Part shown: positions 3,571-31,074 of the stretch, piece after piece
How positions within the stretch are numbered: the first letter of the stretch is position 1
Layout of the letters: each line of letters begins with the position of its first letter
Virus record (IMG/VR): IMGVR_UViG_3300046750_000394
Coordinates: 1-31,381 of that record
Strand: one strand, 5' to 3'
Source: a virus
DNA: 31,381 nt
Notes under the pieces: generated by a model
Databases searched by the model: none
Told to the model about the DNA's origin: nothing
What the model saw: only the letters and a program-made list of their open reading frames with translations
Made by a program: the position numbers and the translations under genes

Positions 3571-3577
3571 GTGTCAA
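3571..3577 (-). promoter_or_regulatory. TTGACAC motif overlapping the stop of the 347-aa gene
   Basis: The minus strand reads TTGACACGCATAAG. Its TGA is the stop codon of the gene at 3574-4617, and the ATG of the protease gene lies 18 nt after TTGACAC, preceded by TATAAT. It is one of the recurrent TTGACACGC sites of this genome. Confidence 0.45.
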
Positions 3578-4617
3578 TTTAACTTCTCTACAAAAGGCTC
3601 TATAAATCTAATTGAACCAGTTAAGTCAGAATTTTGGTTATTAGTATGGTGTGTGCTTTCAGCAAAATACAAACCAAACCAAAAATTAGTAGCTGTGGTA
3701 GGTATATTGCTTACAGTCATCTCTACTCTTTTATATTGCCTAAAATCAGAGCTAGAATAATAAGCACCATTTTCAACCACTCTATTGTATACATTTTGTG
3801 GTATATAAGTACCAGTATAATCAGCAGACCAACCCAAGCCACTCCAGTTAAAAACATCGGTAAGGTTATTGTCATCTAAGTTTGTATTTTCATACAGCTT
3901 ACCATTCATTCTATTATCTTTGCTGACAGTAATAAAATTAACAGTTTCCCTTTGCCCACCAGAGCCATCGTAGTCAGAATCTAAGTATTTAAAATATATA
4001 CCACCAAAGTTACAGCGTGTATCTATTGTTGGGTGGCTTAAAAACTCATCGTCATCTGCTACTTTAATATAAGCACCAAACTTTAATGATGAAAGTGTAT
4101 TGCCACTACTAGTGTTTAGCTGACCTATCTGGCAATAATCATACCTATTATAATATTCCTCAGCACTTGTGCTTGTAGAATTATTTGGCATACTTACTGT
4201 ATCAGTTGTTAAACCTACTGCCGAATAAGGTGACTGCCTATCCATGTCATTGTTAGGGTAATCAGTCTGCTCTGGGAAATAAGTACCAGCCCCATGTAAT
4301 GCTACACCACGCTTTATTACATCAGTAGATTCTGGATCGTAATAGAATCTATCTTTAGAATTTTGGGTAGTCATATAAGTACCACCAAAAGACTTCCAGC
4401 TATCAGTTTCTAACAGCATAGGGCTAAACGCTGTCCACTTATATGGTGGCGAACCTCTATTGCTAGAGCTATGTTGCCCACCATTCCACCAGTCGTTTAG
4501 CTTGTAATTGTTATCGTTATCAAAGCTAGGATTATCTAGTAAATCGTTCCCAGAGTCTGGGTTAAAATCTACTGGTCTATAATTACCAGCTTGATTGCCT
4601 ATCGCACCACCGAACAT
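3574..4617 (-). CDS. Unknown 347-aa protein in the head module; possible head fibre
   Basis: I do not recognise a family. The protein is rich in Asn, Asp, Ser, Thr, Tyr and Trp, has no membrane segment or signal peptide, and begins MFGGAIGNQAGNYRPVDFNP followed by a NPSFDNDNNYKLNDWW segment typical of carbohydrate-binding-like beta-sandwich modules. The C-terminal third (VEMTVSNIPTTATNFWFGLYF) also looks like the edge strands of a jelly roll. It lies between a 100-aa decoration-like gene and the head protease, inside the packaging/head block, so it is probably virion-associated, for example a surface fibre on the capsid. Start ATG at 4617 overlaps the preceding stop, suggesting coupled translation. 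Confidence 0.45.
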   Translation of the reverse strand: MFGGAIGNQAGNYRPVDFNPDSGNDLLDNPSFDNDNNYKLNDWWNGGQHSSSNRGSPPYKWTAFSPMLLETDSWKSFGGTYMTTQNSKDRFYYDPESTDVIKRGVALHGAGTYFPEQTDYPNNDMDRQSPYSAVGLTTDTVSMPNNSTSTSAEEYYNRYDYCQIGQLNTSSGNTLSSLKFGAYIKVADDDEFLSHPTIDTRCNFGGIYFKYLDSDYDGSGGQRETVNFITVSKDNRMNGKLYENTNLDDNNLTDVFNWSGLGWSADYTGTYIPQNVYNRVVENGAYYSSSDFRQYKRVEMTVSNIPTTATNFWFGLYFAESTHHTNNQNSDLTGSIRFIEPFVEKLN

Positions 4618-4919
4618 TACTGCGAAAAGAATCTAGTTACATATACTTGTGCAGAGCCAGTAGTTTCTACTTTAATATCTGTGCCTTGTAATTGTAGGCT
4701 AACAAAACTACTACTATTACTCTCTCCAGAGTAATACTGAGGTACTAATAGTAACTTATCGCCAGAAGCATTACAGACCCATACTCTGTCTGTATCTAGT
4801 GCAGTTATAGTTATATACTCTGTATTGTTAGGTATTGTAATTGCTGAGCTAAGACCATCAATAGTAGAATTGAAAAGCACTTCGCTTGCGTTAATTATTT
4901 CGCCCTCGTATCTTGCCAT
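4617..4919 (-). CDS. Small beta-rich head protein (possible decoration protein or fibre base)
   Basis: 100 aa, starting MARYEGEIINASEVLFNSTI. It alternates hydrophobic and polar residues as in a compact beta-sandwich (ITIPNNTEYITITALDTDRV, VSLQLQGTDIKVETTGSAQV), with no helix-rich part and no cysteine cluster. In size and composition it resembles decoration proteins such as lambda gpD, but here it comes before the protease gene rather than after it. It overlaps the next gene (347 aa) by one base, so the two may form a base-plus-fibre pair on the capsid. Function is inferred from composition and position only. Confidence 0.45.
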   Translation of the reverse strand: MARYEGEIINASEVLFNSTIDGLSSAITIPNNTEYITITALDTDRVWVCNASGDKLLLVPQYYSGESNSSSFVSLQLQGTDIKVETTGSAQVYVTRFFSQ

Positions 4920-22830: not shown

Positions 22831-23280
22831 TTAAGCCATCTCTGGTATTCCCCAGCCAGTAGGTTTTTTTATTACACCAGTTTGTACACCTAAAATATAG
22901 CCTACTCTAGCTATCGTTCTATCTGCACCGAACTCATCAAACTCAGTAAAGGTGTCGTTACTTCTAGGGTATCTAAAATTGTATATCAATTTTACTTTAG
23001 ATGAAAATGCTGGGTTTAATTTATCGCCATTACTAGCAAAGCATCTTATTCTATTTTCTAGTGGCTGGTATCTATAATCAGTATCGTTTAAATATGTAAA
23101 CTTAGCACATCTATAAAAGCCTCCATTAAATTCTAAAAACTTATTGGAAAACTGATAAGCTGTATGGCTTATATCTATTGATACATAGTATGGATAATTT
23201 ACAGCCCTTAAACACTTGGCTCTGTTAAACCCAGCCCTTATTAAAATATTAGCTAGCTTAGTTCTTAGTATTCCATTCAT
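22831..23280 (-). CDS. Tail-associated protein (149 aa), unknown
   Basis: Begins MNGILRTKLANILIRAGFNR, then a Tyr/Phe-rich, mostly beta region with AVNYPYYVSIDISHTAYQFS and a C-terminal VGYILGVQTGVIKKPTGWGI. No family recognised. It is coupled by TAATG to the 572-aa gene upstream, so the two form a unit at the end of the tail block. It may be a small tip or fibre-associated subunit. Confidence 0.6.
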   Translation of the reverse strand: MNGILRTKLANILIRAGFNRAKCLRAVNYPYYVSIDISHTAYQFSNKFLEFNGGFYRCAKFTYLNDTDYRYQPLENRIRCFASNGDKLNPAFSSKVKLIYNFRYPRSNDTFTEFDEFGADRTIARVGYILGVQTGVIKKPTGWGIPEMA

Positions 23281-24998
23281 TAAGTTACTGGGCTTTTTAT
23301 AGATGTTTTCTTATATATGTTACCCATATAACGCTCAATAAATTCGTTTTCAGATTGTATTTTTTGCTTACTTCTAGTTAAGGCTAGGTACTCCCCAATA
23401 CTAGGGTTGCTAAAAATATTAAGAGTCGTGGGTATTTGTAGTTTACTATTTAGCTCTATATTTTCTGGCTGATCTGTTTTAATAAATGTATAAGTAGCCT
23501 CTGCTGGTACATTTATCTCTGGCTCTGCATCAGTTCCAGCAGTACCACCAAACTCTATGCCAAGGTTATCAAAGCCTACTTTACTAAATCTAGCAGTATC
23601 AGTAAAAGCCTTATTCCCATCTACCTTTATGTCGCCAAAAGCCACAGTAGTTACTACGCTTTGTGATGTACTATTAGTATTGGCATTATATATACTTTTA
23701 TAAATACTTATTGGTTCACTAATAGCTTCTAATTTACCACCACCAAATTGTATTAGCCTTAAATCGTTTAAGCCACCAATATTGACCATATTGTATTTGC
23801 TATCTACTTGGCTTTGGTATTTAATGACAGCACCAGCTGGTATATCTCTACCTTTTCTAACTTGGCATATACTGCCAAGACCTACGCCATAATCTATTGC
23901 TGAAAAGTCTGTATCTTGATAATTGGTAGTAACTGTACCAATATGGTTAAAAGGAGCACAATATTTGCCTCTATACAGATCGTTGTATACATTAGTTGAT
24001 GTATAAAATGAATATGTCTTATAGCTATACCCCTCTAATTTATCTGCTGTAACTACAACTCTTAATTGGAGATCGTCAGTATTGGCTATTGTATTTGTTA
24101 CTGTTTTGTTATACCAGCTACTAGATGCAATATTATCTGTATAATTAGACCAACTAGCATTAATAACTGGCGTTAGACTAGATACATCATCGCCAACACT
24201 ATCCCAAGTAGCTTTATTTTCTGCGTATATTTTATATCTAGCGTTGCTTAGATAGCTGAAATCTTTATAGTGACCAAATGGGTGCGTATGTCTTATAAAG
24301 CTAGTATGAGTAGAATTACTTGGTGATGAATTTACATCCATAGGACTATATGCACTAACATCGCAATCACCAATAGTAGCATTAGGCTGACCCCATTTTA
24401 TATGGTAAAAGGGTTTGCCACCACCTAAAAAATAATCATCACCGACTGTATTAAAGCCACCACCATATTTATAATAATTAACACCATCAGCAGTTTGACC
24501 ACCATAGTCATAATAAGTATAATTAGTATTAACTTGGCTGAAAACAAATGGACTAGAATTGCCAGTATGGTAACTATCTTCAGTATAAAAGGAATTATAT
24601 TGATAATCTCTAGGCGAAAAAACTGGCGACTCAATCTGGGGCGTTGCTCTAGTTATTAAACCTATCTGGTCTGTGTATGATGCTGGTACTTGGCTAAAGG
24701 TTCTAGTAAATGTAACTAAACCATTACCAGAATCACTTGGCTCACTATCGCCAACAGAAAAAGCGTTAGCATCGTCAGCAAATGGCGAACCAGTTGGCTT
24801 ATTAGTTCCAGTCATGGGCAAATCTAAAGCTAGTGGCTGATACTCAGTTTTAGCTTGGGTCATAGTATGCTCATATATTACACCACTATTAGGTAAATCA
24901 TTTTTATCAAATGGGTGTACTTTTCTGCCACCAGTACAAGTCGCTGTATCAAAGCTTGTACCACCAAATGCTTTTGCTGTTGTTTCTAAATCACTCAT
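23280..24998 (-). CDS. Putative tail-tip / receptor-binding protein (572 aa)
   Basis: Follows the tape measure by one base. It is rich in Ser, Thr, Asn, Tyr and Gly with almost no charged helix before residue 480, as in tail-tip or fibre proteins. Features: FTRTFSQVPASYTDQIGLIT (about 100-120), a Gly/Tyr-rich stretch (YYDYGGQTADGVNYYKYGGG), SFIRHTHPFGHYKDFSYLSN and a C-terminal helical tail with IGEYLALTRSKQKIQ, ENEFIERYMGNIYKK. That ending resembles proteins I recall following tape measures in marine phages. It probably forms or decorates the tail tip. I recognise no enzyme domain. Another frame at 24425-24634 is a shadow. Confidence 0.6.
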   Translation of the reverse strand: MSDLETTAKAFGGTSFDTATCTGGRKVHPFDKNDLPNSGVIYEHTMTQAKTEYQPLALDLPMTGTNKPTGSPFADDANAFSVGDSEPSDSGNGLVTFTRTFSQVPASYTDQIGLITRATPQIESPVFSPRDYQYNSFYTEDSYHTGNSSPFVFSQVNTNYTYYDYGGQTADGVNYYKYGGGFNTVGDDYFLGGGKPFYHIKWGQPNATIGDCDVSAYSPMDVNSSPSNSTHTSFIRHTHPFGHYKDFSYLSNARYKIYAENKATWDSVGDDVSSLTPVINASWSNYTDNIASSSWYNKTVTNTIANTDDLQLRVVVTADKLEGYSYKTYSFYTSTNVYNDLYRGKYCAPFNHIGTVTTNYQDTDFSAIDYGVGLGSICQVRKGRDIPAGAVIKYQSQVDSKYNMVNIGGLNDLRLIQFGGGKLEAISEPISIYKSIYNANTNSTSQSVVTTVAFGDIKVDGNKAFTDTARFSKVGFDNLGIEFGGTAGTDAEPEINVPAEATYTFIKTDQPENIELNSKLQIPTTLNIFSNPSIGEYLALTRSKQKIQSENEFIERYMGNIYKKTSIKSPVT

Positions 24999-24999
24999 A

Positions 25000-26694
25000 T
25001 TAATTTAATGCGTTTTCTAATTGTGATAATCTATCGTCAATATTGGATATATGCTCTACTGATTCTTCTGAAAGTTCTATAAGGCTTTCTAGGTGTGAGC
25101 CAAGGCGTTCCCCAGACTCCATAGTAGCCTCAGATATGCCATCTAGTTGTTCTTCTAATACCTCTGTAATACCCTCTAGTATTTTAGCACTCTGCTTTAA
25201 TTCAGCTTTACGATCTATACTAGAAAATGCACCACCTCTGGCATCTCCAGCTTGTAAGTTACCAAGCTCTTGGAAAGCACCAATACGCCTACTTTCTTCA
25301 TCTACTGTTCTGGCATCTTTTGGTATTCGACTTAGCTCACTTAACTCTAGGCTTAGTTTCTTTTCTTTATCATCATCATCATCTCTATCGCCTCTATTAA
25401 ATCGTTCTAGCTCTAATAATTCCTTATGCCTTTTCTTATCTTTATCCTCTAAAGATTCTAAAATATCTTCCTCGTCTTCTTTAGCTTGGTTTAGCTTCTT
25501 AGTGCTATCAGTTAAGTCGTCAGTAGCTTTAGTCTTATCTTTAATAGATTTGGTTTCACTAGCATTAGCATCAATAGTGCTATTAACCATATCTGTTAAC
25601 TTAGCTAGTTCATCGTTATATTCTTTAGCAGATTCAGCTCTAATCTTGCTTTGCCTTTCAGCTTCTTTTTGAGCTTCTAATTCTTCAGCAGTTATCTCTA
25701 TATTACCCTCTTGGGCTTGTGTTAGTTTATCTATCTCAGCTTTAAGTAATTTATTAATTTTAATTCTATCTGCTGTCTGCTTAGCACCAATAGCAAACAT
25801 ATTGCCCTCTGTGTGTAAACTTCCTAAGAATTTCTTTAGTGTACCATCAGCCAATAGGTTAGCCTCAGCTTGCTCATACAATGCGTTAGTTTGTAATCTA
25901 GTATGCTCATTTGTAACACCTAGCCTATTTGTAAGCCCAGCTAATGATTCTACCAATGTATTAATCATTGGTATGATGTTCTCACCTAGTTGCTCTCCAA
26001 AGTTTTTTAGCTGTGAGTTTAGCCTTTTGTAAGCATTCATCGAGCTATCGGTAGTCGCCTCAGCGTCTCCAGTAGCTTGCCCCATCATTTTAATTATTAA
26101 CGACTGAGTGGCTAATGCTTTTTGGCTCTGGGTAAGTTTAGTAGTCCCATCGGTAATCCCCATATTAAATGCCTCTTGCTCGACCTTGGCTACATTTAAA
26201 ACGATACCTAATCGCTTCATGGGTTCAAACTCGCCAGAGATAGCAGATGAAATTTTAGTAAATGCTTCTTCAGAGTTTAAGTTATGAAAAGATGCTAAGT
26301 CACCTTGTATTTTAGCCATCTGCACAGAAAACATTGCACTAGCCTCTGTGGTCATTCCCATACCTTGTGCGATCGCACCATAGGTAGCTAAGCTATTTTT
26401 CATCTCAGTCGTGGTAGAGTGTATATGCTGTCTAAGGTTTTCGGCTTCCATAGCCATCTGCTTTGCAGAGTCGCCAAATACTGCATTAAACTTACTAGAA
26501 ACTTCTTCAGCTTCCATAGCCATTTTGCCAAGACTACCAAGCCCCTTAACGCCAGCTATAACTGCACCGATTTGCAAAAATCTACCAGCTGTTGAATTTG
26601 CAAACTTACTAATAGAATTTTTAGCCTTAGCTAGACCAGCCTTTAGCTTGCTGGTATTCAAATCGGTCTTTATCTCTACATCTGCTCTAGCCAT
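25000..26694 (-). CDS. Tape measure protein
   Basis: 564 aa. It sets tail length: at about 1.5 angstrom per residue the tail would be roughly 85 nm. The N-terminal DLNTSKLKAGLAKAKNSISK is the usual tape-measure start, followed by a hydrophobic Gly/Ala stretch (GRFLQIGAVIAGVKGLGSLG). A TMP-type conserved block covers VFGDSAKQMAMEAENLRQHI, then SSAISGEFEPMKRLG and KMMGQATGDAEATTDSS (residues about 70-220). The rest is charged coiled coil, including a DDDDD run near residue 437. It overlaps the chaperone candidate by 8 nt. Confidence 0.9.
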   Translation of the reverse strand: MARADVEIKTDLNTSKLKAGLAKAKNSISKFANSTAGRFLQIGAVIAGVKGLGSLGKMAMEAEEVSSKFNAVFGDSAKQMAMEAENLRQHIHSTTTEMKNSLATYGAIAQGMGMTTEASAMFSVQMAKIQGDLASFHNLNSEEAFTKISSAISGEFEPMKRLGIVLNVAKVEQEAFNMGITDGTTKLTQSQKALATQSLIIKMMGQATGDAEATTDSSMNAYKRLNSQLKNFGEQLGENIIPMINTLVESLAGLTNRLGVTNEHTRLQTNALYEQAEANLLADGTLKKFLGSLHTEGNMFAIGAKQTADRIKINKLLKAEIDKLTQAQEGNIEITAEELEAQKEAERQSKIRAESAKEYNDELAKLTDMVNSTIDANASETKSIKDKTKATDDLTDSTKKLNQAKEDEEDILESLEDKDKKRHKELLELERFNRGDRDDDDDKEKKLSLELSELSRIPKDARTVDEESRRIGAFQELGNLQAGDARGGAFSSIDRKAELKQSAKILEGITEVLEEQLDGISEATMESGERLGSHLESLIELSEESVEHISNIDDRLSQLENALN

Positions 26695-27319
26695 TATTTT
26701 TAGCGTTAAGTTCTTTTAATTGTCTTTTAATTACATCGGTAAGCTCTTTAGGTTCAGCGTAGCTTACTTTGCCACCACGACCCTCACCCATTTTTCTAAT
26801 ACGAATACATCTCATTAATTGAAATATTTTCTTTAGTGGGTACTCCATAGCTTCAGCTATTCTTAGGTTATACTCAGAGCATACCTCGTCTATAATATAC
26901 GCCACACTAGGGCTGGCACTCATGGTAAAGCTACCACCATATTTACTGGCTCTATATTTATTTACTGGGCTGTCGTCCATAGTGTACTCAAAGTGATCTT
27001 TACACTTTTCGGCAATATCTACTATGTCGTGATTCTTAGCAATCTCTTTTAATAGCTTATTTTTTCTTCTTTTATCAAACCAGTTTGGGTTATTTTTATA
27101 AAATACGCTGTGTCTCCAGAGATAAGCCAATACATCGCCTACTAGGTTTTCGTTAGGTTTGCCAGTTACTATAAAATTCTGCCCTATCTCCAAATCTACT
27201 AAACTAGATAGGCTCAGCTGACTAACTGGGAAGCCAGCAATTTTAGTCTGGATACAGCTTGCCCAAGGTAGCATACGCTCTCTCTGTATTCTAGCCTTGG
27301 TTTCTACATAGCTTTCCAT
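26687..27319 (-). CDS. Tail assembly chaperone candidate (lambda G position)
   Basis: 210 aa, ATG at 27319. It is helical and basic (WFDKRRKNKLLKEIAKNHDI, DVIKRQLKELNAKN) with a conserved-looking VGDVLAYLWRHSVFYKN and AEAMEYPLKKIFQLMRCIR. It lies between tail tube and tape measure, where tail chaperones always sit, and overlaps the tape measure by 8 nt. Lambda-type G/GT pairs use a -1 frameshift; no slippery heptamer or second frame is visible here. A TTGACAC motif lies exactly 13 nt before the ATG. The role is positional inference. Confidence 0.6.
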   Translation of the reverse strand: MESYVETKARIQRERMLPWASCIQTKIAGFPVSQLSLSSLVDLEIGQNFIVTGKPNENLVGDVLAYLWRHSVFYKNNPNWFDKRRKNKLLKEIAKNHDIVDIAEKCKDHFEYTMDDSPVNKYRASKYGGSFTMSASPSVAYIIDEVCSEYNLRIAEAMEYPLKKIFQLMRCIRIRKMGEGRGGKVSYAEPKELTDVIKRQLKELNAKNNG

Positions 27320-27339: not shown

Positions 27340-27348
27340 AATAAAATT

Positions 27349-27376
27349 AGGGTAGCCCCAGCTAAGAAGCTACCCT
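27349..27376 (-). terminator. Terminator or attenuator after the tail tube gene
   Basis: Minus-strand AGGGTAGC and GCTACCCT form a perfect 8-bp stem around a 12-nt loop, followed by AATTTTATTTTG. The T-run is broken, so partial read-through into the chaperone and tape measure genes is expected. This fits the much higher amount of tube needed. Confidence 0.72.
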
Positions 27377-27402
27377 ACAAAAACTAAAACAACTAAAATA
27401 AA

Positions 27403-27774
27403 TTAGCCTTGGTATGTATCTAAAAGCACGCCAATCTCAAAGATGTCTGCTGAGTCTTTAGAGCGTGTAGTTTTAGTATCGGTAACAACTAAAGTGCTTG
27501 CAGTACCAGACTGGTCAAAGTCATAGGTAAAAGATGTACCACTATCTGGCAAATCTACTGTGCGATCTGCTCTCTGTAAAGTCATAGTGCCAGTAATTTT
27601 TTCACCAGATGCACGAATTTGATAATCAGATGCGTCACCATTTTCGTCAGTTCGGTTAATAATACGAGTTGTTTCGGTTGATAAATCGACAGCATCTACT
27701 TTATAAGCAACTGTGTTGATTGTAACTGTTTCAAATCCCAATGGGAAATCTGTTGTACCAGTTGGTAATGACAT
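27403..27774 (-). CDS. Major tail tube protein
   Basis: 123 aa, starting MSLPTGTTDFPLGFETVTIN. It is a compact beta-rich protein (TETTRIINRTDENGDASDYQ, IRASGEKITGTMTLQRADRT) ending in a strand-helix (IFEIGVLLDTYQG), as expected for a small tail tube subunit (lambda V / HK97 gp6-like fold). It has the only strong Shine-Dalgarno in the tail block and is followed by a terminator/attenuator, consistent with the most abundant tail protein. Its whole length is related to the first 155 residues of the 911-aa protein encoded just upstream. Confidence 0.75.
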   Translation of the reverse strand: MSLPTGTTDFPLGFETVTINTVAYKVDAVDLSTETTRIINRTDENGDASDYQIRASGEKITGTMTLQRADRTVDLPDSGTSFTYDFDQSGTASTLVVTDTKTTRSKDSADIFEIGVLLDTYQG

Positions 27775-27784
27775 AATTAATATT

Positions 27785-27790
27785 CTCCTT
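27785..27790 (-). promoter_or_regulatory. Strong Shine-Dalgarno of the tail tube gene
   Basis: Minus-strand AAGGAG within AAAAAAGGAGAA, 10 nt before the ATG at 27774. Most other genes here have no such sequence, so this marks the tube gene as strongly translated. Confidence 0.75.
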
Positions 27791-27835
27791 TTTTAATGTT
27801 TTAGTTTAAGTTTAAAATGTATATATAAATCTTGC

Positions 27836-27842
27836 GTGTCAA
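27836..27842 (-). promoter_or_regulatory. TTGACAC motif before the tail tube gene, possible promoter
   Basis: Minus-strand TTGACACGCAAGATTTATATATACA lies across the end of the 911-aa gene, 61 nt before the tube ATG. TATACA stands 13 nt after TTGACA. Because this site alone has room for a leader and SD, a promoter is most plausible here. Confidence 0.5.
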
Positions 27843-27847
27843 ATGGT

Positions 27848-30583
27848 CTAGGTTTCACCTAAGTGCCTTGCGTCTGTCATTTTGTCGTCAGAATCAATAA
27901 TATAACCATTACTATCGTAAGATAGGCTAGTATCTGGGTCATGTATATGGCGTTTCATTCTGCTCTGTAATCCCATGCTTTTAGGATATACTGGGTTTGT
28001 GGTAGTTCCAGAATTATCTGCAAAGCCTTGCCCTATGATTAAATAAATAGGTGCTTCTACGATTTGTACCCTTAAATTAGATATTACTATATTTTCGCCC
28101 TCTTGTATCTTAAAGGTTATATCTTTTAAATAATTACCATTGTTAGGTAAATAAAACTCTTTAGAGAAGCTACCAAGCCTATCTATTACTGTCGTACCAT
28201 TTGTGGGTGTCCATCTGCCACCACCAGAGCTACTTTGTGCTGGTATTATCTCTATTGTATTATCGGTATATAATTTATACTCAGATAAATACCAAACATC
28301 GTTAGCCTCAGAAGATACTGTAACTGGCACGCCATCTGCCTTGTACTGATCTAATACAGTTATAAACCTAGTTATATTATTTGGCTTGTCTATAAGTTCA
28401 CCATATAACTTGCCATAAGTTAAGGTGGCAGTAGTCCAAGCCCCACCAACTATTTGCACGCCAGTACCAGAGTAAGATATTTCCTCACCTTGTGCAGTCC
28501 TTTGTGTACCAATATGGAAATAGTTGCCCACCAAAGGGTGACCAGTTGGTACATAGTAAGTAAATTCTATTTTACCACTTGTGCTTGTTTTATAAGCACT
28601 AACACTTAGCCCTATTTGTGGCGTACATTTTTGTAGGTTTTTTATTTCTACTACATTGCTTTTACCAAAGGCACTAGCTATCCTACCTACGCTTAATTTA
28701 GAGCTAGACTGGTTAGGAAATAATCCATCGTCATTTACAGTAAAATCACTTGTCTCTACTAATCTTTTCACAAAGGTTTCTAAGTTACCAGAAACTCTTA
28801 CTTTAGTTAATGCAGTTTCTTTAGCTTTTAAAGCACTAGGTAGCGAGCAAACTGCAACCACTTGCTTAGGGTTATACGAAACACTAGGATTTATCGCAGT
28901 AACAGTTGTGGCATCTACTGATAGGGTTCTAGTGCTACTATCCCAGTTAAAAGAATTAGCAGTAGATAATTTATTAAAAGTACCCTCGTAAAAATCTCCA
29001 AAGGTTGGTATATCTGTGTCACAATCAAAGGTATAATCTTCTATCTTAATACCCTTTGTGGTTAAATCCTTATCAGACCAGCCCTCGATAAATGAGCTAA
29101 AATATTTTTTTCCATTTTTGAAACTACTAGCGATTCTATCAAAGTTGCTAACTCTATTAACTTCAAAATTATTATCCTCTGGCTTCTTAGGCTCTGCATT
29201 AAGATTGTTTTTATCGCTAGTTGGTAAGCCAATGTTTATTGTGCCTTGGTCTGCTGGTATGTATCCTATCTTATGATAAGCATTATCTTTAGGTGGTGCT
29301 ACTTGCCAGTACCATTCGTTAAAATAATCCCTCATGTAGTTAGTCATAAATACTAACTGCTTTGGGAAAGTTAGCCACCAGTTCTTTAATGAGTTATCGC
29401 ACTCTCTTACCTCATACTTTTCTGGTTCTTCTATAATATCTAAAAATTCAAGCTCACAGCCAACCCAGCCAGTCGTAGGTGTTGGTGAATTTTGCTGGTA
29501 TCTGCTGGCTACCCTAAAAATAAGTGTATCTGCACTATAAAAGTTTAAACTCTTATCTATATTAGCCTCTAAGTAAGTAGAGCTATGGTTATATCTTACA
29601 GCACCACTATTTATATTGTTTTCCCCAGAAAATTGTATTTTAGCTGTACTATTAAAAGTGCCATAAGTTCTACCATCTCCATTATTAGAGCCATTTAAGC
29701 ACCTCATTCTAAATCTAATTTTATTTTTGATTGTAGGATTAATTGAGCTAGTCGTATATGCACCTTTTTTTAAGCCTTTTATAACTATACCTATGGAATA
29801 AGGTTGCTGGGTTGCGTTAGCTCTATATACGCCCATTCTTAAAACTCTTTTACCACCAATAGTAGTCCAGTCACAAAAGCTATCTGTAACATTGTTGCCA
29901 AGTACGGCTTTCTTTACTTGGTAGTCGTTTCTTACTTGGTCTCTATTGGTGTTATCAGCTAGGGTTAAAGTATTAGGTATAGTTTTGTAGCTAGATGTTA
30001 AATTTGGAAAATCTTTAAAGTGTGGTAATACATTCTTTTCATTGTAAGTCTGCAATGGGTTCATGAACATACTAGACTGATCGCCATAAGTTTTGGCGTG
30101 CATTGCTATAACGCCCTTACTGTACCTATCTATTAATATGCCACACTCTATTTTATCTGCCTCTGATTTGCTTTTAACTACCTTAACACTTGTGATATAT
30201 CCAAATAAATGCCCCTCTTGCCCAAAGTTACCTTGGGCGTATATTTTCATACCAGCACTAGGTATCTCTGGTGCTGATTCGCCATAGTTTCTTTTATTGG
30301 CTGTGATACCTTGGAAAACTAATCTAAACCAGATATTATTAAATACTGGTGGGTTAAATCTAAAAGTAATATCAGTTGGTCTTTTTAGTGTAATTGTCCC
30401 AGTCATTTTCTCACTAGCCAACCTTATCTGGAAATCGCTAGGGTCGCCAAACTCATCGTAACGCTGGATAAGCCTTGTAGCCTTTCTAGGTAAGTCTATT
30501 GATTCTGGCGTATATTCTTTACCCTCAATATTTACCTTATATAGACCTAAGGGGAAATCGTAACTGCCACTAGGTAAGCTCAT
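27848..30583 (-). CDS. Large tail protein with N-terminal tail-tube domain (911 aa)
   Basis: Residues 1-155 match the tail tube protein (27403-27774): both start MSLPxGxxDFPLG, then TRxIxRxDExGDxSDxQIR, xEKxTGTxTLxR and end in ExGxLxDxY, with a 30-residue insertion in this copy. The remaining 750 residues are Asn/Ser/Thr/Tyr-rich beta sequence with motifs such as VLRMGVYRANATQQPYSIGI, ending in MGLQSRMKRHIHDPDTSLSY. The gene lies between tail terminator and tube, where a tube-tip, distal ring or tube-displayed fibre gene could be. I infer that it copolymerises with, or caps, the tube and carries the large domain outwards; no enzyme motif is recognised. Confidence 0.65.
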   Translation of the reverse strand: MSLPSGSYDFPLGLYKVNIEGKEYTPESIDLPRKATRLIQRYDEFGDPSDFQIRLASEKMTGTITLKRPTDITFRFNPPVFNNIWFRLVFQGITANKRNYGESAPEIPSAGMKIYAQGNFGQEGHLFGYITSVKVVKSKSEADKIECGILIDRYSKGVIAMHAKTYGDQSSMFMNPLQTYNEKNVLPHFKDFPNLTSSYKTIPNTLTLADNTNRDQVRNDYQVKKAVLGNNVTDSFCDWTTIGGKRVLRMGVYRANATQQPYSIGIVIKGLKKGAYTTSSINPTIKNKIRFRMRCLNGSNNGDGRTYGTFNSTAKIQFSGENNINSGAVRYNHSSTYLEANIDKSLNFYSADTLIFRVASRYQQNSPTPTTGWVGCELEFLDIIEEPEKYEVRECDNSLKNWWLTFPKQLVFMTNYMRDYFNEWYWQVAPPKDNAYHKIGYIPADQGTINIGLPTSDKNNLNAEPKKPEDNNFEVNRVSNFDRIASSFKNGKKYFSSFIEGWSDKDLTTKGIKIEDYTFDCDTDIPTFGDFYEGTFNKLSTANSFNWDSSTRTLSVDATTVTAINPSVSYNPKQVVAVCSLPSALKAKETALTKVRVSGNLETFVKRLVETSDFTVNDDGLFPNQSSSKLSVGRIASAFGKSNVVEIKNLQKCTPQIGLSVSAYKTSTSGKIEFTYYVPTGHPLVGNYFHIGTQRTAQGEEISYSGTGVQIVGGAWTTATLTYGKLYGELIDKPNNITRFITVLDQYKADGVPVTVSSEANDVWYLSEYKLYTDNTIEIIPAQSSSGGGRWTPTNGTTVIDRLGSFSKEFYLPNNGNYLKDITFKIQEGENIVISNLRVQIVEAPIYLIIGQGFADNSGTTTNPVYPKSMGLQSRMKRHIHDPDTSLSYDSNGYIIDSDDKMTDARHLGET

Positions 30584-31074
30584 TAGTCAGCTAGTACAAT
30601 AAATTGTATAGAATAGTTCAATACTGTTACACGATCGTCCTCATCTTTTGAACGCTCAGTACCAGCTGGCATTATCTTAACAACTTTTACTGGCTCATCG
30701 TCAAAAGCATTAACCACAGCTGTGGCTGATCCATCTAATGTAGATCGCACAATAGTAAGCATATAATCATGAAAGCTAGATACTGTACTAGAAGCAGAGC
30801 TAGGGTCATTTGGTGGCGTTGTATCGTCTAATCTGCCAGTAGATACTTCAAATGATAAGTCAGCCTCATAGTGGTCATATTCGCCATCAGCGTTAGTACG
30901 CTCGTCACTAATTGGTGAGCCTATGGTAGCTTCTATATAAATATAATTAGCTGGAGTTTCAGCACTTGGCTGGTCAGATATTAAATAATTTATATTAGTT
31001 GAATCTACGCTATTTAAAGCCTCTTTAAAACCCTTTTCTATCTCATTCTCAAATGCGTATGTAACGAGTGCCAT
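30583..31074 (-). CDS. Tail terminator protein (lambda gpU-like)
   Basis: 163 aa, starting MALVTYAFENEIEKGFKEAL, then an alternating alpha/beta pattern (YIYIEATIGSPISDERTNAD, HYEADLSFEVSTGRL, FHDYMLTIVRSTLDG, VTVLNYSIQFIVLAD) typical of tail terminators, which cap the tube and fix tail length before joining to the head. Position between the Z-like and the tube-related genes equals lambda U. The stop overlaps the next start (TAATG). A TTGACAC motif lies exactly 13 nt before the ATG. Confidence 0.72.
   Translation of the reverse strand: MALVTYAFENEIEKGFKEALNSVDSTNINYLISDQPSAETPANYIYIEATIGSPISDERTNADGEYDHYEADLSFEVSTGRLDDTTPPNDPSSASSTVSSFHDYMLTIVRSTLDGSATAVVNAFDDEPVKVVKIMPAGTERSKDEDDRVTVLNYSIQFIVLAD

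Follow-up and report, generated by a model that had tools for sequence, protein, structure and literature searches.

In lactococcal phages of the 936 group, a fraction of the tail tube subunits, MTP-TpeX, ends in a long C-terminal extension, which is poorly conserved from phage to phage and binds host cells in tests (PMC6669499). TpeX arises by a programmed frameshift, its tube domain is identical to that of the normal subunit, and its extension is BppA-like (PMC6669499). The tail of SPP1 likewise contains a minor form of its tube protein with a C-terminal extension, gp17.1*; this too is a frameshift product rather than a paralogue, has a single FN3 domain and is present in a ratio of 1:3 (PMC8718954). 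In lambda gpV and T5 pb6, an Ig-like domain that follows the tube domain (residues 1-156 in lambda) is displayed outside the tube; here the C-terminal domain, ~90 residues in lambda, is present on every subunit (PMC8718954). T4 gp48 and gp54, on the other hand, assemble into hexameric end rings of the tube and serve as the hub for its polymerisation; they belong to the baseplate at the distal end of a contractile tail, and no large displayed extension is described for them (PMC8718954). A search of literature that included few subscription papers found no description of a paralogous major tail protein, which is weak evidence of absence.

The window analysed here, an IMG/VR virus record of 31,381 bp from a marine phage, encodes a 911-aa protein that is proposed to work as TpeX and gp17.1* do, but that falls outside their group because it originates in gene duplication and not in frameshifting: its tube domain is encoded by a separate, diverged gene, and its extension is longer than that of TpeX and unrecognised. 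(A frameshift extension of the 123-aa tube gene was considered and rejected; the 911-aa gene is separate and complete, with a diverged tube domain.) The window is very likely a complete circular genome, since an exact 127-bp repeat is found at both ends and the tail completion gene spans their junction. The nearest isolated relative, the Verrucomicrobia phage P8625, is a marine siphovirus whose tail measures 71-75 nm (PMC4642752). TerL of the two phages is 47% identical, the tube protein 52%, and tail gene order is alike; unlike the window phage, P8625 encodes the tube once and has tail fibres in genes of their own, gp22-gp24 (PMC4642752). The tail module and the extended copy lie on the minus strand of the window, in the order tail completion, terminator-like, extended copy, tube, 210-aa protein and tape measure. 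The 911-aa gene thus sits between the terminator and tape measure genes, in an order that matches P8625 and other relatives. A distal tail protein (Dit) was rejected as an identity for its product: the gene is upstream of the tube gene, not after the tape measure gene, which is followed by a tip protein of the gp20 family. Coordinates are collected in the table.

Features of the window (positions on the 31,381-bp stretch; energies for Shine-Dalgarno pairing)
Feature	Position	Strand	Basis or remark
347-aa protein overlapping the 100-aa gene	3574..4617	-	rival receptor-binding candidate; unrelated proteins in this slot in L003 and L009
100-aa protein, between portal and protease	4617..4919	-	conserved in the three-phage clade
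Tail-tip protein, 149 aa	22831..23280	-	matches a 182-aa protein of L003; positional equivalent of P8625 gp21; no fibre gene after it
Tail-tip protein, 572 aa, P8625 gp20 family	23280..24998	-	ends conserved, middle variable
Tape measure protein, 564 aa	25000..26694	-	PHROG 1535, E=6.8e-15
Putative tail assembly protein, 210 aa, between tube and tape measure	26687..27319	-	position conserved in relatives
Terminator-like hairpin directly after the tube gene	27348..27377	-	strong; 12 bp, T-rich tail
Major tail tube protein (P0002), 123 aa	27403..27774	-	identity with tubes of P8625 and the closest relatives 52-73%; nearly all relatives have one copy
GGAG Shine-Dalgarno of the tube gene	27785..27788	-	strongest in the window, -8.9 kcal/mol
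911-aa protein gene (P0001)	27848-30583	-	uninterrupted ORF
C-terminal extension, 755 residues (157-911 + stop)	27848..30115	-	no known homologue
Tail-tube-fold domain, residues 1-156 of the 911-aa protein	30116..30583	-	BLASTP, family HMM, AF2, Foldseek
Loop, residues 72-107 of the 911-aa protein	30263..30370	-	alignments; low pLDDT through residues 72-101
TAATG overlap, stop of 163-aa gene and start of 911-aa gene	30581..30585	-	no Shine-Dalgarno site
Putative tail terminator, 163 aa	30583..31074	-	position and homologues

The 911-aa protein had been predicted, from the DNA alone, to begin with a full tail-tube-like domain paralogous to the 123-aa tube protein encoded downstream, and this is borne out by pairwise and profile comparison, phylogeny and structural models. 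BLASTP aligns the two proteins at 85.5 bits (E=1e-24; 34% identity over 155 columns, and 52% in the first 69 residues), and residues 1-156 match a profile HMM made from relatives with E=3e-35. Structure prediction of both N-termini, the check originally suggested, yields folds that do not differ: in AlphaFold models (P8625 was left out of the input alignment) eight strands follow in the same order, at residues 16-19, 22-30, 36-42, 48-55, 60-67, 113-117, 126-136 and 144-154 of the 911-aa protein and 15-19, 22-30, 36-42, 48-55, 60-68, 81-84, 93-103 and 111-120 of the 123-aa protein. These strands of the 911-aa protein are modelled with pLDDT mostly 70-95; the low-confidence loop of 36 residues between the fifth and sixth is ~33 residues longer than its counterpart in the tube protein. 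The solved structures that Foldseek matches best to the 911-aa protein are nearly all phage or tailocin tail tubes, lambda gpV and that of roseophage R4C among them, in matches that are individually modest (probability 0.9-1.0, E 1e-3 to 3e-2); the 123-aa protein matches a wider group of tube and Hcp structures. VIA Z-scores of 6-8 are likewise modest singly, but the matches are coherent and gene order fits them. The N-terminal domain is therefore a paralogue of the adjacent tube protein with the same predicted fold; chance resemblance or an ORF created by faulty assembly has a negligible probability, being ruled out by the BLASTP paralogy, the uninterrupted reading frame and the equivalents in two independent contigs.

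Those equivalents were found among ~70 relatives with a tube gene, collected by scanning viral contigs. Two of these contigs, L003 and L009, carry an extended tube paralogue at the same position (384 and 255 aa, respectively, both lacking the long loop); the remaining relatives have a single tube gene of ~120-132 aa. Searches with the 911-aa protein and the 384-aa protein of L003 turned up no further relatives among the viral contigs scanned. (One locus, L115, was picked up by a profile of the extended copies and rejected, since it carries just an ordinary 128-aa tube.) A tree of 62 tube domains unites the three extended copies in one clade (100/99), which together with the tubes of their own three phages makes up a supported group of six sequences (98/82). 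The three extended copies also have in common a two-residue insertion (aligned GY/GI) and P32. The window copy lies on a long branch (1.67), which makes its exact placement less certain. The simplest reading of the tree is a single duplication in the common ancestor of the three phages, followed by turnover of the extension. Between L003 and L009, dN/dS is 0.34 for the tube domain of the extended copies, 0.16 for the tube gene and 0.38 for the C-terminal domain that the two extended copies share; these values indicate purifying selection on both parts of these copies.

The extension itself, put at 750 residues in the original prediction, is confirmed with a slightly refined boundary (755 residues). 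It matches no family in Pfam, PHROG or NCBIfam at loose limits, no sequence in phage records or the PDB, no ORF of the relatives, and nothing in 384 genomes of the host class (a search run without a positive control). No lectin, carbohydrate-binding or fibre family is recognisable in it, BLASTP self-comparison detects no internal repeats, and the AF2 model is mostly below pLDDT 50. The extended copies of L003 and L009 have a C-terminal domain in common (47% identity over ~125 residues), to which L003 adds an inserted domain of ~135 residues; the extension of the window protein matches neither. Unlike extensions on a common tube domain imply turnover of the extension, which is replaced between phages, with the tube domain retained.

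Insertions are also seen in other proteins of this clade. The terminator-like protein of L003 (L003:5896-6765) has an inserted domain of ~125 residues relative to its homologues in the window and L009, which makes it a second neck-region protein of the clade to gain domains. A protease/scaffold-like protein of L009 (L009:2510-4309) has an insertion of ~108 residues (213-320) that is absent in the window and L003. In the tail-tip family of P8625 gp20, the ends are conserved and the middle is different in each phage (window 23280-24998; L003:11068-12420).

Translation signals bear on copy number. Shine-Dalgarno energies of the tube genes of the window, L003 and L009 are -8.9, -7.3 and -7.3, those of the corresponding extended copies -1.4, 2.3 and 0.4, and in 11 relatives that lack the duplication the tube gene has no such site (this correlation with the duplication, and that of the missing fibre gene described below, rest on one evolutionary event). 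Because strong sites are found on the tube genes and none on the extended copies, many tube subunits and few extended subunits are predicted. The TAATG overlap of stop and start codons resembles translational coupling of the extended copy to the terminator-like gene. A TTTGACAC-like element is located ~9-20 nt before several starts that lack a Shine-Dalgarno site (952, 10356, 27319, 31074 and others, on the minus strand of the window) and is also found in L003 and L009; it could be a promoter or a translation signal. TTGACAC occurs 10 times in the window (~4 expected), 9 of these on the coding strand, and precedes an ORF start in 5 of 5 cases in L009 and 5 of 6 in L003. On the contigs L004 and L005, the peptide YPFYGY recurs in translations near gene starts (start codons near 1005 and 13193 of L004; ORF 4463-4813 of L005), which suggests that the phage concerned has an intergenic DNA motif in several copies.

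The tube domain of the extended copies has lost conserved residues in one place. Of 39 columns that are at least 90% conserved in normal tubes, 17 are kept and 5 lost in all three extended copies, and the five (D85, D87, S89, S93 and T94, each at least 92% conserved among 56 tubes) belong to a single hairpin. The ordinary tubes of the same three phages retain this hairpin, with the one exception of S for T94 in L009. Moreover, the net charge of the window tube domain is +3, vs -13 to -3 in the 56 tubes. Such changes favour a specialised position over free mixing with normal subunits. Together with the contrast in ribosome-binding sites, the lost hairpin lends indirect support to one of the two roles originally envisaged for the protein, that of a minor tube subunit.

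The other half of that suggestion makes the extension a fibre or receptor-binding part. Absence of the relatives' usual tail-fibre gene renders this plausible, but the extension matches no known family and its model is of low confidence. A P8625 gp22-like fibre gene comes after the tip genes in nearly all relatives for which at least 5.5 kb downstream of the tube gene could be compared. It is absent from the window, which is very likely a complete genome, and from L003; L009 is too short to judge. L010 and L011, apparently one virus, also lack the gp22-like gene, yet have no duplication; a pair of genes for proteins of 106 and 563 aa takes its place. A further candidate lies in the head module, where all three phages of the clade have a conserved gene of 97-100 aa followed by an unrelated protein of 304-347 aa (window 3574-4919; L003:706-1913; L009:1029-2308), an apparent exchangeable cassette. 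In L009, the protein in this portal/protease slot is a laminin-G-like lectin. Since unrelated proteins, one of them lectin-like, follow the conserved gene, the receptor-binding role may be shared with this slot or located there.

The 911-aa protein is probably a low-copy tube subunit that holds adhesin domains outside the tail, most plausibly as part of a dedicated end ring. After duplication of the tube gene in the ancestor of the three phages, the upstream copy would have become a minor tail-tube subunit present in the virion at few copies, its tube domain built into the tail and its extension pointing outwards with host-binding domains. Loss of one surface that is invariant in normal tubes suggests that it is placed in a ring of its own at one of the tube ends. 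On balance the extension is expected to bind the cell surface, and it would partly stand in for the missing fibre. Random replacement of normal subunits along the whole tail, producing many weak adhesins, is a further conceivable arrangement: the tube domain has the same start and fold as the tube protein, and SPP1 mixes its two forms at 3:1 (PMC8718954). The loss of the same hairpin in all three copies argues against such mixing, as do the charge of the window domain and the few copies that the translation signals predict, and this arrangement is judged unlikely.

As to which end, the head-proximal one, beside the terminator, is slightly but tentatively preferred on account of gene order and the possible coupling to the terminator gene. 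A distal or initiator ring at the tail tip, with the extension a part of the tip, would resemble T4 gp48/gp54, whose hexameric end rings are the hub for tube polymerisation (PMC8718954), or the tube paralogues of contractile injection systems, and the loss of one conserved surface would fit a ring with a single normal neighbour. However, ~60 close relatives make tails without a protein of this type, so that the gene is not a general requirement, the gene adjoins that of the terminator, and the usual tip genes are still present after the tape measure gene; a distal location is accordingly quite improbable. It is also doubtful that the protein merely decorates the tail and that attachment resides elsewhere, either in the 100/347-aa pair or in the 572-aa tip protein, which is enlarged. 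The conserved small gene with its changing partners, one a lectin, and the variable middle of the tip protein would fit such a division of labour, but an extension of 755 residues, exchanged from phage to phage, looks host-driven and not inert.

Because the known minor extended tube subunits are products of ribosomal frameshifting, a single tube domain has to serve both forms. With a gene copy of its own, the minor form can specialise; in these three phages it has a common surface change and a different extension each time. The further-reaching proposal that in this clade a dedicated ring of duplicated tube subunits, possibly at the neck, has replaced a tail-tip fibre as the site of the main adhesin, with the extension as an exchangeable cassette, is speculative and at present rather unlikely; if it is true, the side or top of the tail would be where the phage holds on to its host. 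The locus lends itself to the study of how a tail positions one distinct ring among others almost identical to it, and of how phages shift adhesins between parts of the tail.
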